From assembly GCA_028871525.1 (NCBI GenBank), contig JAGWMX010000001.1, positions 1 to 64,000 on the forward strand: 64,000 nucleotides of DNA, in the 5' to 3' direction. Both the position numbers and the translations under genes were made by a program. This document shows positions 23,485 to 63,040 of this stretch, one piece after another. The notes below the pieces were generated by a model. That model saw only the letters and a program-made list of their open reading frames with translations, was not told the origin of the DNA and made no database searches. The stretch is from Gammaproteobacteria bacterium. GTDB lineage: Bacteria > Pseudomonadota > Gammaproteobacteria > Nevskiales > Nevskiaceae. Numbering within the stretch: the stretch's first letter is position 1; each line of letters starts with the position of its first letter.

Positions 23485-24469
23485 GCATGGCGCTTCGCAG
23501 TTTGCCGATCAGTGCGTCCAGATCGGCCGGCAGCGGCGATTCGAATGCCAGCTTACGCGCTGTAATCGGATGCTCGAAGGCGAGCAGACGTGCGTGCAGC
23601 GCCTGACGTTTGAAGCCGGCATCGGCTCCGGCGCACCGGCGTCCGCCATAGATCGGATCGCCCAGCAGCGGGTGGCGGATATGGGCCATATGTACACGGA
23701 TCTGGTGGGTGCGGCCGGTCTCCAGCCGTACCCGTAGCCAACTTGCGCCGCCGAAGCGCTCGACCACGCGATAGTGAGTGACCGCCGGCCGGCCGCGCGC
23801 GACCACGGCCATGCGCACGCGGCTGTGCGAATCGCGACCGATCGGCGCCTCGATACGACCGCCGGCGATGACCTCGCCATGCACCAGCGCATCATATTCG
23901 CGGTGAATCGCCCGCGCCGCCATCATCCGCGTCAATCGTGTGTACGCTGGCAGGTTCAGCGCCACCACCAGCAGCCCGGATGTATCCTTGTCCAGCCGAT
24001 GGATCAGCCCAGCACGAGGGAGTGCCGCGGTTTGCGGATATCGGTGCAGCAGTGCGTTGACCAGCGTACCCGCCGGCCGGCCGGCGCCCGGATGCACGGT
24101 CAGCCCGGCCGGCTTGTCGATCACCGCCAGGTGCTCGTCGCCGCCCACCGCCTGAATGTCGATCTGCTGCGCCTGCGAGACCGGCTCGAGGTCCGGTGGC
24201 GGCGCGCGCAATTCCAGCCGATCGCCAGCGGCGACCGGCTGCCGCGGCCGCATCGCCACCACACCGTTGACCCGCAGCCGCCCCTGCTCGATCCAGGCTT
24301 TCAACCGCTGCCGCGAATAACCGGTGAACAGCCTGGCGGCAACCGCATCCAGCCGCAGGCCGTGGTGGTGTGCAGCCACAGCCACGCGCGTCACTGCAGC
24401 CGATTCGCTTACCGTCGAGCTTGGGCTATACTGCGTGCCGAATTCTCCGTCTGATCGCGCCGCGTTCAT
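23477..24469 (-). CDS. rluD: 23S rRNA pseudouridine(1911/1915/1917) synthase
   Basis: RluD makes three pseudouridines in helix 69 of 23S rRNA. The 330-residue product has an N-terminal S4 RNA-binding domain (GLRLDAVAARLF to VNGVV) and the catalytic motif HRLDKDTSGL near residue 157, then ETGRTHQIRVHMAH. The only ATG is at 24469, but family similarity begins around residue 26, where a GTG at 24394 could be the true start. That shorter start would leave room for the bamD promoter, which otherwise lies inside rluD. As written, the rluD and bamD start codons overlap on opposite strands. Confidence 0.93.
   Translation of the reverse strand: MNAARSDGEFGTQYSPSSTVSESAAVTRVAVAAHHHGLRLDAVAARLFTGYSRQRLKAWIEQGRLRVNGVVAMRPRQPVAAGDRLELRAPPPDLEPVSQAQQIDIQAVGGDEHLAVIDKPAGLTVHPGAGRPAGTLVNALLHRYPQTAALPRAGLIHRLDKDTSGLLVVALNLPAYTRLTRMMAARAIHREYDALVHGEVIAGGRIEAPIGRDSHSRVRMAVVARGRPAVTHYRVVERFGGASWLRVRLETGRTHQIRVHMAHIRHPLLGDPIYGGRRCAGADAGFKRQALHARLLAFEHPITARKLAFESPLPADLDALIGKLRSAMHG
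24404..24432 (+). promoter_or_regulatory. Candidate sigma-70 promoter for bamD
   Basis: TTCGCT (24404-24409), a 17 bp spacer, then TATACT (24427-24432). The -10 is a five-of-six match. Transcription would begin about 29 bases before the bamD ATG. It lies within the annotated 5' part of rluD. Confidence 0.5.
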
Positions 24470-25973
24470 GAGAATACGTATTTATCTGCTCGCCGCCGTC
24501 GTGGCAGCGCTTGCCGGCTGCAGCAGTTCACCGTCGAAAACGGCTTCGCTGCCTGCGGACAACCCGTTCAAGCTGCAGGACAACGCAGCCGGCGACCTGA
24601 AGCAAAAACGCATCAGCGAGCTTGAAGCCAAGCTGAAAGCCCAGCAACTTTACCACCTTGCGCACAATCAACTGGAGAGTTCTGAGTTCGGGGCGGCGCT
24701 GAAAACCTACGACAAGGTGATCGAGCAGTTTCCGTTCACCAACTTTGCGACCCAATCCGAGGTCGAGAAAATCTACGCGCAGTACCGCAGCTTTCAGTTC
24801 GACGAAGCCACTTCCGAGGCGGATCGCTTCCTGCGCGAACATCCGCGGCATGCCGATGCGGCCTATGTCCAGTATCTCAAGGGCCTGATCGATTCGGCAC
24901 AAAACGATTCGCTGCTCGATTATCTGCCGTTGTCGCCGGCCCAGCGGGACGTCGGCTCCAAGGAAAAGGCTTTTTCGGAATTCGGGTTGCTGGTCCAGCG
25001 CTATCCGAACAGCATTTATGCCGCCGACGCCCGCAAGCGCATGATCGCGCTGCGCAACGAAATCGCTGCCCACGAGGTGGCAATCGCGCATTTCTACCTG
25101 AGCCGCGGCGCCTATCTGGCCGCTGCGCGTCGCGCCGAGGAAGTGGTGGCGCGCTATCCCGGCGCACCGGCCACCGCCGAGGCGCTGAGCCTGGCTGCGC
25201 GCTGTTACAGCGAACTGGGGTTGAACGACCAGAAACACGAGACCGCGACGCTGATCGCGGTCAACCGGCCTGCGTTTCTGGCGCTCAAAAACCCACCCAA
25301 GGCAGCGGTTGCGGCCGCCGCGCCGACCGCCGCGCCGACCTCCGTCCCCGCCAAGACATTGCGCTTGGCGCGTCTGAACGACTGGGAGGCGGTTGCCACC
25401 GATGCGCCGCCGCCAGCAACTCCCGCGTCAGCCGCCACGGCACCGGCGCCGGCACGCCATCGCGGCTGGCTGTCGCGCTTCGCCGGCCTGTTCTCGTGGA
25501 TGGATACCACCAAAGCCGAGAACCGCCACGTCATCACGCTCGGCGGCACGCCGGCAGCCGCGGCTTCGGCGCCGGCCGCTCAAACCGCGGTCGCCGAGGG
25601 GGCGACCGCCGCACCTGTTGCGACTGCGGCGGCACGCACGGCAGCCGCCGGGCAACGGCCGATCCCGGGTACCGGTTTGACCGTTTCGGTCGGTCCGGAT
25701 CCTGCCGACGAATGGCATCCGCTGGACCAGCCGGCCACCCCAGGCAGCGCCGCTGCCGATCCGACGCCGGCCGGCGTCAGATCACAACATCTCTCGGCAT
25801 CGGCACAGGCGCGAAACACCGCCGGCGAGCGGCAAGCGGATTGCGGACTCTTCAGCCGTGTCTGGTATTTTGTCACCTTCCGCTCTTGCCCCAGCCAGTC
25901 CGGTGATAGCTCGTCAACCGCCTTAAAAGGCTCGGCCGCGCTCCGCGCTGACAGCTTACGATCCTCCTATTGA
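24468..25973 (+). CDS. bamD: Outer-membrane assembly lipoprotein BamD with a 250-residue C-terminal extension
   Basis: BamD is the essential lipoprotein of the BAM complex that inserts outer-membrane barrels. The start ATG 24468 gives a lipoprotein signal with lipobox LAGC (Cys18), then TPR repeats (YDKVIEQFPFTNFATQ, HADAAYVQYLKG, RYPNSIYAADA) ending with CYSELGLNDQKHETATLIAVN near residue 265. Canonical BamD stops around here (about 245-270 residues). This protein continues to residue 501 with low-complexity Ala/Pro/Thr sequence, an RLARLNDWEAV motif and a short hydrophobic stretch (RGWLSRFAGLFSWM). Its first 80 tail residues are shared with the LptD-SurA linker. The last 50 or so residues look non-conserved. 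Confidence 0.92.
   Translation: MRIRIYLLAAVVAALAGCSSSPSKTASLPADNPFKLQDNAAGDLKQKRISELEAKLKAQQLYHLAHNQLESSEFGAALKTYDKVIEQFPFTNFATQSEVEKIYAQYRSFQFDEATSEADRFLREHPRHADAAYVQYLKGLIDSAQNDSLLDYLPLSPAQRDVGSKEKAFSEFGLLVQRYPNSIYAADARKRMIALRNEIAAHEVAIAHFYLSRGAYLAAARRAEEVVARYPGAPATAEALSLAARCYSELGLNDQKHETATLIAVNRPAFLALKNPPKAAVAAAAPTAAPTSVPAKTLRLARLNDWEAVATDAPPPATPASAATAPAPARHRGWLSRFAGLFSWMDTTKAENRHVITLGGTPAAAASAPAAQTAVAEGATAAPVATAAARTAAAGQRPIPGTGLTVSVGPDPADEWHPLDQPATPGSAAADPTPAGVRSQHLSASAQARNTAGERQADCGLFSRVWYFVTFRSCPSQSGDSSSTALKGSAALRADSLRSSY
25209..25450 (+). repeat. bamD copy of the segment shared with lptD-surA
   Basis: This is the single-unit, probable donor version of the segment at 14242-14566. Both copies are read in the same frame, and several of the early differences are synonymous (CTA/CTG, GCA/GCG), which suggests both have been under protein-level constraint since the copying. 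Confidence 0.85.
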
Positions 25974-57500: not shown

Positions 57501-58847
57501 ATGCCGAAGCTGTACCTGAAAACCTACGGCTGTCAGATGAACGAGTACGACTCGTCGAAGATGGCCGCCGTGCTGGCCGCCTCGCACGGCTATACCGTCA
57601 CCGATGATCCGGACAACGCCGACCTGCTGCTGCTGAATACCTGCTCGGTGCGCGAAAAGGCGCAGGAGAAGGTGTTCTCGGAACTGGGCCGCTGGAAGGC
57701 CTGGAAAGCCGCCCGGCCGGGGCGCATGGTCGGTGTCGGCGGCTGTGTGGCGAGCCAGGAAGGCACGGCGATCATCGGTCGCGCGCCGATCGTCGATCTG
57801 ATCTTCGGCCCGCAGACGCTGCACCGCCTGCCGGAACTGCTGCAGCAGGCGCGTGCTACCGGCCGCCCGGCGGTGGACATCCGCTTCCCGGAGATCGAGA
57901 AATTCGACTGCCTGCCGGAGCCGCGCGCCAAGGGTCCGACCGCCTTCGTCTCGGTGATGGAAGGCTGCAGCAAGTACTGCAGCTTCTGCATCGTGCCGTA
58001 CACCCGCGGCGAGGAAGTCAGCCGGCCGCTGGTTGACGTGCTGGCCGAAGTGCACAAGCTCGCCGCGCAAGGCGTGCGCGAGGTCACTTTGCTGGGTCAG
58101 AACGTCAACGCCTACCGCGGCGCCACGCCCGACGGCGAAGCCGCCGATCTGGCGCTGCTGATCGCCTGCGCGGCGCGCATCGACGGCATCGGCCGCGTGC
58201 GCTTCACCACCAGCCATCCAGCCGAGTTCACCGACGCCCTGATCGACGCGTTCCGCGACGAGCCCAAGCTGGCCGGTTATCTGCACCTGCCGGTGCAGTC
58301 CGGCTCGGATCGCATCCTCGGCATGATGAAACGCGGCTACACCTGCGCCGGCTATCTGGACAGAATCCGACGGCTGCGCGAGGCGCGTCCGGGCATCGGC
58401 CTGTCTTCCGATTTCATCGTCGGCTTCCCGGGCGAGAGCGACGAGGATTTCGAGCAGACGATGGCATTGATCGAACGCGCGCGTTTCGATCAGGCGTACT
58501 CCTTCATCTACAGCCCGCGGCCAGGCACGCCGGCGGCGCGCCTGCGCGACAGCGTCCCGACGGAAACCAAGCAGGCACGGCTGGCGCGGCTGCAGGCGCG
58601 CATCCGTGACTTCGGCGCCGAATACGCTGGCGCGCTGGTCGGCACCGCACAGCGGGTGCTGCTGGAAAAGCCGTCGCTCAAAAACCGCGGCTGGCTGGCC
58701 GGCAAGACCGAGTGCAACCGCTGGGTCAACCTGCCGGCGCCGGCGGCCGGCGCGCAGCGGTTGATCGGACGCTTCGCCGCGGTCGAGATCACCGAGGCGC
58801 TGACCAACTCGTTGCGCGGCCGGCTGCTGCGGGTCGAAAATCTTTGA
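57501..58847 (+). CDS. miaB: tRNA-2-methylthio-N6-dimethylallyladenosine synthase
   Basis: MiaB methylthiolates i6A37 in tRNAs reading U-starting codons. The 448-residue protein has the N-terminal UPF0004 cluster cysteines ([26 protein letters not shown]), radical-SAM CSKYCSFC (near 155-162) and a C-terminal TRAM domain. It heads the conserved miaB-phoH-ybeY-corC operon. Confidence 0.97.
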
Positions 58848-59845
58848 ACACCCCCGCTGACCCGCCCGCGGTACGCACCGAGCTGGCGCTGGAACCCGAC
58901 GACGGCACCCGACTGGCCAACCTCACCGGGCCATTCGACGCCCACCTGCGCGCCATCGAACTGGGTCTGGGCATCGAGATCCGCAACCGCGGCAACCGTT
59001 TCTCGCTGCATGGTCCGGCGGCGCCGGTGGCGCGCGCGGAACAGGTGCTGCGCGAGCTGTACGCCGCCGCCGAGGACGCACTCGACGCCGAACAGGTGCA
59101 TTTGGCGCTGGCCGAAAGCGGCGCCGCAGACCTCGACGCGCCGGCGGAGAAATCCGGCGACGTCGTCATCCGCACCCGGCGCGGCGTGATCCGCGGCCGC
59201 AGCGCGCAGCAGCGCGTCTATCTGCGCTCGATCGCCGCACACGATCTGAGTTTCGGCGTCGGCCCGGCCGGCACCGGCAAGACCTATCTGAGCGTCGCCA
59301 GTGCGGTATCGGCACTGGAACGCGACCGGGTGCGGCGACTGGTGCTGGTGCGCCCGGCGGTCGAAGCCGGCGAGAAACTCGGCTTTCTGCCCGGCGACAT
59401 GGCGCAGAAAATCGACCCCTACCTGCGCCCTTTGTACGACGCGCTCTACGAAATGCTCGGTTTCGATCGTGTCGCGCGGCTGGTCGAGCGCAGCGTCATC
59501 GAAGTGGCGCCGCTGGCATTCATGCGCGGCCGCTCGCTCAATGAGAGTTTCGTGATTCTCGACGAAGCGCAGAACACCACGGTCGAGCAGATGAAAATGT
59601 TTCTGACCCGCATCGGCTTTGGCTCGGTGGCGGTGGTGAACGGCGATATCACCCAGATCGACCTGCCCAAGGGCGTTGCCAGCGGGCTCAAGCACGCGCT
59701 GGCGGTGCTCGACGGCGTGGCCGGCATCGGCGTGACCCGATTCGGCCACGGCGACGTGGTGCGCCATCCGCTGGTGCAGGCGATCGTGCGCGCCTACCAG
59801 GCCCACGAAGCGCGCCCACGTGGCGGATCCCGGAGCGGCAGTTAG
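58844..59845 (+). CDS. ybeZ: PhoH-like ATPase (YbeZ)
   Basis: This 333-residue PhoH-family protein has a KH-like N-terminal part and a P-loop domain with Walker [12 protein letters not shown] (near 141) and Walker [12 protein letters not shown]. It works with YbeY in RNA metabolism. The likely start TTG 58844 overlaps the miaB stop; no ATG is available near the family start. Confidence 0.92.
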
Positions 59846-59851
59846 CCAGCC

Positions 59852-60304
59852 ATGGGTGCGCAGATCAACCTGCAACGTCGAGTGCCGCCTGCGGGCATTC
59901 CATCGGCGGCGGCGCTGCGCGCCTGGGCCCAGGCGGCGATGGACGGCACCGCCGGCGAGCTGACGCTGCGCATCGTCGATGAAACCGAAAGTGCACGGCT
60001 CAACGGCCGCTTTCGCAACCGGCCCGACCCGACCAACGTGCTCTCGTTCGCCTACGACGCCGAACCGCTACAAGGCGCCGGCAGCGGCGATCTGCTCGGC
60101 GATGTGGTGATCTGCGCACCGCTGGTGGCGCGCGAGGCGCGCGCGCAACGCAAACCGCCGCGCGCGCATTGGGCGCATCTGGTGGTACATGGCGTGCTGC
60201 ACCTGCTCGGCCACGATCACCTCGATCCGGCCGATGCCCAGCGCATGGAAGCCCGCGAGCGTGAAATCCTCGCCACGCTCGGCTTCGCCGATCCCTATCG
60301 CTGA
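59852..60304 (+). CDS. ybeY: Endoribonuclease YbeY (16S rRNA 3' maturation)
   Basis: This 150-residue metal-dependent RNase is needed for 16S rRNA maturation and 70S quality control. The zinc motif H-G-V-L-H-L-L-G-H-D-H is complete (HGVLHLLGHDHL), and RPDPTNVLSFAYD is typical. It lies 6 bp after ybeZ and 15 bp before corC. Confidence 0.95.
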   Translation: MGAQINLQRRVPPAGIPSAAALRAWAQAAMDGTAGELTLRIVDETESARLNGRFRNRPDPTNVLSFAYDAEPLQGAGSGDLLGDVVICAPLVAREARAQRKPPRAHWAHLVVHGVLHLLGHDHLDPADAQRMEAREREILATLGFADPYR

Positions 60305-60319: not shown

Positions 60320-61165
60320 ATGTCCGACACCCCGCAACCGAGGCGGCCGCGCGCAGGCTGGTGGCGCCGGCTGATGCGCCGTCTCGGCAGCGCGCCGCTG
60401 TCACGCGAAGACCTGCGCCAAGCGCTCCACGAAGCTTCACGGCAGGGCCTGATCGATCCCGACGCCGCCGAGATGATCGGCGGCGTATTCGAGAGCGGCG
60501 AACTGCAGGTGCGCGACATCATGATCCCGCGTGCGCAGATGGTGGTGATCGAGCGTGACTGGCCGCTGCAGCGACTGCTGCAGACGGCGGTAGAGTCCGG
60601 GCATTCGCGCTTTCCGGTCATCGGCGATTCGCGCGACGAGGTGGTCGGCATCCTGCTGGCCAAGGATCTGCTGCGCTGCACGCTGGACACCGATCCGGGC
60701 CAACCGCTGGCGGTCGAGCGCTGGCTGCGGCCAGCGCTGTTCGTGCCCGAGTCCAAGCGCGTCAACGTGCTGCTGCGTGAATTCAAGCGCGGCCGCAACC
60801 ACATGGCGATCGTCGCCGACGAATACGGCGGCGTCGCCGGTCTGGTGACCATCGAGGACGTGCTGGAGACCATCGTCGGCGAGATCGAGGACGAATACGA
60901 CGAGTCCGAATCGGCACCGATCCTGAAACTCGACCAGCGCCGCTATTCGATCAAGGGTCTGACCCCGATCGAGGAGTTCAATCGCTACTTCGGCGCCGAA
61001 TTTTCCGACGCGGACTTCGACACCGTCGCCGGGCTGGTGGTGCATGCTTTCGGCCGCATGCCGCGACGCGGCGAATCGGTGCGCATCGGCCGCTTCCAGT
61101 TCAACGTCCAACGCGCCGGCAGCCGCCGTGTGGATCTGCTGCAGGTGACACTTGCGCAAAATTAG
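60320..61165 (+). CDS. corC: CBS-domain protein CorC (YbeX)
   Basis: This 281-residue protein has paired CBS domains (VRDIMIPRAQMVVIE to FPVIGDSRDEVVGILLAKDL; FKRGRNHMAIVADEYGGVAG to LVTIEDVLE) and a C-terminal CorC_HlyC domain. CorC is linked to Mg/Co efflux and to ribosome metabolism. It has no membrane helices. It overlaps the next gene by 14 bp. Confidence 0.94.
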   Translation: MSDTPQPRRPRAGWWRRLMRRLGSAPLSREDLRQALHEASRQGLIDPDAAEMIGGVFESGELQVRDIMIPRAQMVVIERDWPLQRLLQTAVESGHSRFPVIGDSRDEVVGILLAKDLLRCTLDTDPGQPLAVERWLRPALFVPESKRVNVLLREFKRGRNHMAIVADEYGGVAGLVTIEDVLETIVGEIEDEYDESESAPILKLDQRRYSIKGLTPIEEFNRYFGAEFSDADFDTVAGLVVHAFGRMPRRGESVRIGRFQFNVQRAGSRRVDLLQVTLAQN

Positions 61166-62354
61166 CCTGACCGCACTGCTGGCACTCTGCAGCGCGTTCA
61201 GCTCTCCGGCCGCGCACGCCTGGAGCGCTGCACCGGCGGCGGTGCGCATCAGCCTGCTGACCTTCGGTCCCGGACAGATTTACTGGGAGCGTTTCGGCCA
61301 CAACGCGATCCTGGTACGCGACCCTCGTAACGGCGAGGCGCTCGTCTACAACTACGGCATCTTCGATTTTTCACAGAAGAACTTTTTTCTGAATTTCGCC
61401 CGCGGCGTGATGCGCTACCGCATCGCCGCCGACCCGCTGGGCGCCGATCTGGCGATGTACGCCGCCGAAGGCCGCTCGGTCACCGAGCAGGCGCTCGACC
61501 TGTCGCCGGCGCAGAGCGGGAAACTGGCGCGCTTCCTGGCCTGGAACGCGCGTCCCGAAAACGCGCAGTATGCCTACGACTACTTCGTCGACAATTGCTC
61601 GACGCGGGTGCGCGATGCACTGGATCTGGCGCTGGGCGGCATTTTGCACCGACAACTCACGGCGTTGCCGGCGGCTCACAACTATCGCTTCGAAGCCACC
61701 CGGCTGATCTGGCCGGACCACTGGCTGATGCTGGGCATGGATGTCGCGCTCGGCCCGGCCGCCGACCGGCCGCTGAACCTGTGGCAGGAGAGCTTCATTC
61801 CGATGGTGCTGGCCCGTGCGCTGCGCCAGGTGGCCGTGACCGACGCCGCCGGTCATGTGCGGCCGCTGGTGGTCGCCGAACGGGTGCTGCTGCCGGGCGC
61901 GCTGCCACCGGCGCCGGCCGCGCCACCCGATCTGCGGCTGCCGTTCCTGCTCGCCGGGCTGACGCTGGCGGCCATGCTGCTATGGCTGGCGCGCGCGGGA
62001 CGCGGCGCGCACCGGTGGCCGTTCACCGCGCTCGCCGGCACGTTGTGGCTGATCTGCGGCCTTGGCGGCCTGGTGCTGGCGGCGATGTGGAGCCTGACCG
62101 AACACTGGGCGGCCTGGGGCAACGAGAACCTGCTGCTGCTCGATCCGCTGTGCCTGTCGCTGCCGTGGCTGTGGCGGCGCGTTGACGGAGCCGGCCGTTG
62201 GCTGGCGACGCTGGTCGCACTGCTGGCGCTGGCCAGCCTGCCGCTGCGGCTGCTGCCAGGCGCCTATCAGCACAACCTCGCCTTTATCGCACTGCTGGCG
62301 CCGCCGCATCTAGCGCTGGCGTCCGCCGCCTGGCGCCGAGGCCGGACCGCGTGA
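61152..62354 (+). CDS. Lnb/DUF4105-family protein, candidate lipoprotein N-acyltransferase
   Basis: This 400-residue protein has a signal peptide (LTALLALCSAFSSPAAHA), a periplasmic DUF4105 domain with conserved His (ERFGHNAILV, near residue 50) and Cys (DYFVDNCSTRVRDAL, near 150), and five C-terminal helices (about 258-395). This is the layout of Lnb, the lipoprotein N-acyltransferase described in Bacteroides, and the His-then-Cys order fits a permuted NlpC/P60-like acyltransferase. It sits directly after corC, where lnt is found in most gammaproteobacteria; no lnt is present here. TTG 61152 is the likely start. Domain assignment is good, activity inferred. Confidence 0.75.
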   Translation: MRKISLTALLALCSAFSSPAAHAWSAAPAAVRISLLTFGPGQIYWERFGHNAILVRDPRNGEALVYNYGIFDFSQKNFFLNFARGVMRYRIAADPLGADLAMYAAEGRSVTEQALDLSPAQSGKLARFLAWNARPENAQYAYDYFVDNCSTRVRDALDLALGGILHRQLTALPAAHNYRFEATRLIWPDHWLMLGMDVALGPAADRPLNLWQESFIPMVLARALRQVAVTDAAGHVRPLVVAERVLLPGALPPAPAAPPDLRLPFLLAGLTLAAMLLWLARAGRGAHRWPFTALAGTLWLICGLGGLVLAAMWSLTEHWAAWGNENLLLLDPLCLSLPWLWRRVDGAGRWLATLVALLALASLPLRLLPGAYQHNLAFIALLAPPHLALASAAWRRGRTA

Positions 62355-63040
62355 GCGGTTATTTCACGCCCGCGTCGTTCAAATTTCTGCGCGCGCTGGC
62401 GCGTCACAACGAGCGCGCCTGGTTCGTGGCGCACAAAGCCGACTACCAGCGACACGTCCGCGACCCGTTCCTGCGCTTGATCGCCGATCTGACCGAACCG
62501 CTGACGCGCATCAGCCGGCACTACGTCGCCGATCCCAGACCGGTGGGCGGCTCGCTGTTCCGCATCCACCGCGACACCCGCTTCGCCCGCGACAAACGGC
62601 CGTACAAGGAGTGGGCCGGCGCCCGCTTCTTCCACCGGCGCGTGCGCGAAGTCGACGGCGACGCACCGAGCTTCTATCTGCACTTGCAGCCCGGCGACTG
62701 CTTCGTCGGCGGCGGCCTGTGGCATCCACAGCCGGCTGCGCTCAAACGTGTGCGCGCCTATCTCGTCAATAATCCGGCGAGCTGGAAGCAGGCCACCCGC
62801 AGCCCGGCATTTCGCCGCGCTTACACCTTGGGCGGTACTGCCCTGGTGCGGCCACCGCAGGGTTTCGCTCCTCAGCACGAGTTGATCGCGGACCTGAAAC
62901 GCAAGGACTTCGTCTGCACCGCGCCGCTCGACGACGCGGCCTTGTGCCGCGCCGATCTGCTGCGGACGATCGCCCGCCGCTTTCAGCGCGTCGCACCGCT
63001 GATCGACTGGCTGTGCGGCGCGCTGGATCTGGAGTTTTGA
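62351..63040 (+). CDS. DUF2461 (TIGR02453) family protein
   Basis: This 229-residue cytosolic protein is of the DUF2461 family: start SGYFTPASFKFLRALARHNE, central FRIHRDTRFARDKRPYKEWA and YLHLQPGDCFVGGGLWHP. No biochemical function is established to my knowledge. It starts at GTG 62351, overlapping the stop of the Lnb-like gene (GTGA), so it is translationally coupled and probably the operon end. Confidence 0.88.
   Translation: MSGYFTPASFKFLRALARHNERAWFVAHKADYQRHVRDPFLRLIADLTEPLTRISRHYVADPRPVGGSLFRIHRDTRFARDKRPYKEWAGARFFHRRVREVDGDAPSFYLHLQPGDCFVGGGLWHPQPAALKRVRAYLVNNPASWKQATRSPAFRRAYTLGGTALVRPPQGFAPQHELIADLKRKDFVCTAPLDDAALCRADLLRTIARRFQRVAPLIDWLCGALDLEF

Follow-up and report, generated by a model that had tools for sequence, protein, structure and literature searches.

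The apolipoprotein N-acyltransferase Lnt, a drug target, carries out a step of outer-membrane biogenesis that E. coli cannot do without. In Bacteroides the N-acyltransferase is reported to be Lnb (Armbruster 2024, PNAS, as cited in PMC12994826 and PMC13251419), an enzyme described as adding the third acyl chain (PMC13103446; PMC13251419). A 2026 study describes the DUF4105 proteins as a clade mainly of Bacteroides with a Firmicutes branch, and as having given way to Lnt repeatedly, in three genomic contexts; its text does not name the Lysobacterales as carriers (PMC12994826). The idea of an exchange between DUF4105 proteins and Lnt is, by that study, partly known already, and we found no published report of it in the Gammaproteobacteria in the literature. 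For Xanthomonas campestris no Lnt was found and diacyl anchors were inferred (PMC10368991, 2023), and loss of lnt is tolerated by LolF-type species (PMC11784454, 2024 review).

Here we analysed a stretch of 64,000 nucleotides (the window) from a Nevskiaceae-like gammaproteobacterium, in which an lnb-like gene follows miaB-phoH-ybeY-corC, the place where relatives have lnt (Table 1). The preliminary description of this DNA had placed an Lnb-type protein there, and Pfam bore this out with both Lnb_N (PF13387, 80.7 bits against a cut-off of 22.2) and 5TMH_Lnb (PF25221, 30.7 bits against 25.2). The putative signal peptide, predicted to be cleavable, the FGHNA and DNCSTR motifs and the five C-terminal helices that it had also listed were all recovered in the protein, the helices lying at residues 262-281, 288-315, 332-342, 346-365 and 376-399 of the model. 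Neither LNT_N and CN_hydrolase nor DUF7840 and DUF7843 were detected in this protein by Pfam. An in-frame stop codon at 61146-61148 makes the TTG at 61152 the most upstream start possible, and the open reading frame is real and intact. Asn324 is kept in all 91 homologs and His318 in 90/91. A pseudogene was ruled out by the intact frame and the invariant catalytic residues.

Table 1 Features of the window around the lnb-like gene, with the predicted residues and domains of its product.
Feature	Position	Strand	Remarks
BamD (YfiO) lipoprotein gene	24468..25970	+	YfiO PF13525, 181.7 bits; lipobox LAGC
miaB	57501..58847	+	Pfam/NCBIfam
phoH	58820..59845	+	Pfam; 58820 is a provisional start
ybeY	59852..60304	+	Pfam/NCBIfam
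corC (CBS / CorC_HlyC)	60320..61165	+	Pfam/NCBIfam
lnb-like gene, 400 aa	61152..62354	+	TTG start; 14-base overlap with the end of corC
Putative signal peptide, residues 1-23 MRKISLTALLALCSAFSSPAAHA	61152..61220	+	read from the sequence; without a canonical lipobox
Lnb_N (former DUF4105), periplasmic permuted NlpC/P60 domain	61224..61652	+	
His50, predicted catalytic	61299..61301	+	91/91 homologs
Cys149, predicted catalytic nucleophile	61596..61598	+	91/91 homologs
5TMH_Lnb five-helix membrane domain	61935..62348	+	conserved His318, Asn324, Pro332
DUF2461 gene, downstream of lnb	62352..63040	+	Pfam/NCBIfam

The Lnb architecture proposed earlier stands at the level of the two Pfam domains, both over their cut-offs, and not at that of the NCBIfam Lnb equivalog (NF051878), which aligns with residues 9-345 at 180 bits (E 6.5e-53) and so misses its cut-off of 550 bits by a wide margin. 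The corC-linked Lnb proteins tested scored between 127 and 180 bits on this profile. By the NCBIfam standard the window protein would be classed as a divergent Lnb-type homolog and not as the Bacteroides equivalog. Its AlphaFold model (mean pLDDT 86.8) has a permuted NlpC/P60 fold, with matches to the structures of TseH (Z 11.4), the B. cereus peptidase-like protein 3kw0 (Z 10.8) and YiiX (Z 10.6). Foldseek alone returned no match under E 0.001, with TseH ranked first at 0.012, and a profile search of solved structures returned nothing (best E 0.05). A role as a peptidoglycan peptidase was rejected, as permuted, lipid-type NlpC/P60 relatives rank first and a membrane domain is present.

A search of the genome for lnt had been set beforehand as a check. 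In the draft assembly that holds the window (2.71 Mb, 146 contigs, 91.9% complete) no match to LNT_N (PF20154) was found, and the best TIGR00546 score was 41 bits against a cut-off of 132.9, the matches being ordinary carbon-nitrogen hydrolases, of which this genome encodes four. The preliminary description had left it open whether Lnb acts instead of Lnt or in addition to it; with no Lnt in the window genome, the former fits better. At this completeness and in this many contigs, a missed lnt is conceivable from the window genome alone. Lgt is present there and in 19/19 genomes tested.

The distribution of the two genes was then followed in 25 Nevskiaceae-like genomes, the window genome included. 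A short Lnb without LNT_N was found in 18 of them and LNT_N without a short Lnb in six. The remaining draft (G020) has neither, and its whole corC locus is absent, so that it probably reflects an assembly gap and was set aside. This exclusion gives a Fisher p of 4e-5 over the 25 genomes, which are related to each other. In the six Lnt-positive genomes of the family, as in the other families of the order that were examined, lnt lies directly after corC; the other 17 lnb-positive genomes show the order miaB-phoH-ybeY-corC-lnb (one lacks miaB in the stretch fetched). Lnt and Lnb are mutually exclusive in one slot across the family, and therefore presumably serve the same step. Long DUF4105 proteins (L001-L025, for example L002 and L008), by contrast, are widespread in the order, alongside either Lnt or the short Lnb.

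Among 80 independently fetched loci, lnb lies directly 3' of corC in 73. The named loci come from Nevskiaceae (Nevskia, Solimonas, Hydrocarboniphaga) and Lysobacterales (Dyella, Luteibacter, Rhodanobacter, Dokdonella, Rudaea, Oleiagrimonas, Luteimonas). With the gene order kept at 73/80 of these loci and in 17/17 family carriers, a chance neighbourhood was rejected. The DUF2461 gene follows lnb in only some relatives; in the window, rmuC also lies downstream, on the opposite strand. Five lnb genes away from corC (L107, L118, L139, L146, L151) belong to a Steroidobacteraceae MAG and unclassified proteobacterial MAGs. Their Lnb sequences form one clade nested inside Rhodanobacteraceae-like Lnb, which suggests that they were acquired by horizontal transfer.

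The finding reaches further than first stated and takes in the majority of one family and almost an entire order. Lnb was present in 87/91 genomes of a Lysobacterales-like order, one family of which (f18) groups with named Luteimonas (Lysobacteraceae) and another (f185) with named Rhodanobacteraceae. Three of the four Lnb-less genomes carry a canonical Lnt directly after the corC homolog (>90 bits, a split between canonical and divergent Lnt that was set after the scores were seen); the last of the four is a draft of 80% completeness. Of 20 loci from ten families of this order, 18 have lnb after corC, and the two that differ are a second lnb copy and a genome with lnt in the slot. In the f193 outlier G421 (L255), lnt follows a very divergent corC; the other sampled f193 genomes carry Lnb.

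The main exception to strict exclusion is a set of divergent Lnt-like paralogs (26-64 bits), present outside the corC slot in 19 of the 87 Lnb-positive genomes of this order. Most retain the E-K-C nitrilase triad. In the Lnt tree the ones examined group as a separate clade; the long branch of L084 in this tree was disregarded because its row is in the wrong frame. Such paralogs combine LNT_N with CN_hydrolase in frames of 391-1079 aa (L221-L240, L261, L262 and L265, from G404, G407 and others). In a class-wide sample of 369 gammaproteobacterial genomes, Lnt was found in 335 and strong Lnb matches in five; of these five, G404 encodes an Lnt-like protein as well. Some 30 genomes of this sample contain neither LNT_N nor a profile-detectable Lnb; many of these are small or incomplete and some are more than 95% complete.

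To trace the history of the slot we used a tree of MiaB, PhoH, YbeY and CorC as the proxy for the species tree, bearing in mind that these flanking genes may have travelled along in some swaps. The family forms one clade on this tree (100/100), its lnb carriers do not (AU p 2.5e-5), and well-supported branches imply that the slot switched between lnb and lnt no fewer than four times. The Lnb sequences of the family group together (94/73), next to Rhodanobacteraceae-like Lnb (93/85), while in the CorC tree the family CorC follows the Nevskiales, which suggests that lnb came in from a Lysobacterales lineage and took the place of the resident lnt. It is moderately supported that the family acquired lnb from this lineage, probably from a Rhodanobacteraceae-like donor, and then exchanged it in place with lnt several times; the direction of transfer has no more than moderate support because outgroup rows fell inside the Lysobacterales-like Lnb set in the AU test. 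A single clade of all Lysobacterales-like Lnb that leaves out the family was rejected by the AU test (p 0.008). Either repeated replacement or a two-gene ancestor followed by losses explains the pattern of the slot, and both histories are best understood if lnb and lnt do the same job.

The domains, the fold, the invariant His and Cys, the absence of Lnt, the occupation of the lnt slot and the repeated mutual replacement are the basis of our main reading, to which we give a probability of about 0.87: the window gene would encode an Lnb-type lipoprotein N-acyltransferase that fills the role of Lnt in this organism. The earlier description was right on the gene and very probably right on its predicted function. 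In the mechanism that we propose, the lipobox cysteine would first be modified with diacylglycerol by Lgt, and the signal peptide would then be removed by LspA; the permuted NlpC/P60 domain, periplasmic and anchored by five membrane helices, would use Cys149, activated by His50, to accept an acyl chain donated by a phospholipid, and from Cys149 this chain would pass to the lipoprotein cysteine at its free alpha-amine. Of this scheme we infer the reaction, its acyl donor, a thioester intermediate and the triacylation of BamD and other lipoproteins. BamD, noted earlier as a lipoprotein of the window and found here with its YfiO domain and lipobox, is a likely substrate of N-acylation that would be triacylated in this way. 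Its frame spans 501 aa with the YfiO domain within residues 57-261, and no Pfam match was found in the long C-terminal part.

Exactly one LolC/E-type protein over the cut-off was found per genome in 18/18 genomes tested, lnb-positive and lnt-positive alike, which suggests a LolF-type transporter throughout. Such a transporter may have eased the exchange of lnb and lnt. Because of this single protein, and because LolF-type species tolerate the loss of lnt (PMC11784454), N-acylation may not be strictly required.

We also considered whether the lipoproteins of these hosts could be diacylated, with the Lnb-like protein acting as some other acyl enzyme of the NlpC/P60 kind, for instance a phospholipase or one for lysophospholipid remodelling. 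Diacyl cargo would be compatible with a single LolF-like transporter, diacyl anchors were modelled for X. campestris, in which no Lnt was found (PMC10368991), and lipases such as Tox-Act1 are counted among the permuted NlpC/P60 relatives (PMC12994826). We regard this as unlikely, as it leaves unexplained both the exclusion of lnb and lnt in one slot, with at least four exchanges, and the near-full-length match to the Lnb profile. It is similarly improbable that the protein N-acylates by another chemistry, either a Lit-like transfer from the lipoprotein's own glycerol or the use of an unusual acyl group. E. coli without lnt is sustained by Lit-made lipoproteins (PMC11784454), a substitute need not yield triacyl products, and the protein is far removed from Bacteroides Lnb in sequence; against this, the domain pair and the catalytic residues are those of Lnb, which is reported to add a third chain (PMC13103446, PMC13251419).

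The incompleteness of the window genome, together with the divergent Lnt-like paralogs found beside Lnb in some Lysobacterales-like genomes, would also allow for an lnt within the unassembled 8%, in which case Lnb would be an addition. We consider this very improbable: the lnt slot of this genome is assembled and occupied, and all 18 Lnb-positive genomes of the family are without LNT_N, most of them 94-100% complete and some in one or two contigs. Our preferred reading therefore remains that of an Lnb-type N-acyltransferase in place of Lnt.

More broadly, it is likely that in nearly all Lysobacterales (an order to which Xanthomonas, Stenotrophomonas and Xylella belong) and most Nevskiaceae an Lnb-type enzyme replaced Lnt in its slot through repeated reciprocal exchange, that their lipoproteins are N-acylated by this unrelated enzyme and that the published diacyl inference for Xanthomonas is wrong. 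Xanthomonas would be included by way of its family, Lysobacteraceae, and the named Luteimonas. The Lnb-type protein would offer the missing enzyme for the Lnt-less X. campestris, and bacteria thought to have two-chain lipoproteins probably make three-chain ones. If true, a different enzyme serves a large group, major crop pathogens among them; inhibitors of Lnt would miss it, and the structure of lipoproteins, and hence their recognition by host receptors, needs rethinking for bacteria declared Lnt-less. The slot offers a remarkably clear example of non-orthologous gene displacement at a single, fixed locus; both states occur within one family, and the function is therefore directly testable by gene swaps in laboratory strains. 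The corC slot may be one of the three exchange contexts described in PMC12994826.

Compared with known systems, the window protein shares with Bacteroides Lnb (NF051878; Lnb_N and 5TMH_Lnb) the putative signal peptide, the Lnb_N domain with its His and Cys, the five-helix membrane domain, a length of about 400 aa and a host without Lnt; unlike that enzyme, it is gammaproteobacterial, scores 180 bits against 550 and lies in the lnt slot after corC. With Lnt (TIGR00546) it shares this slot after miaB-phoH-ybeY-corC, whereas Lnt has an unrelated fold, with a membrane domain and a nitrilase domain bearing a Glu-Lys-Cys triad, and no homology to it. The long DUF4105 proteins (Lnb_N, DUF7840 and DUF7843; 600-880 aa) have the Lnb_N domain in common with it, but lack a 5TMH_Lnb match and score at most 28 bits, if at all, on the Lnb profile; they are a subfamily separate from the corC-linked Lnb. 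Permuted NlpC/P60 enzymes (TseH, YiiX, LRAT/H-REV107 and Tox-Act1) resemble it in their papain-like permuted fold, with the His before the Cys, and differ in having other substrates and no five-helix membrane domain of the Lnb kind.
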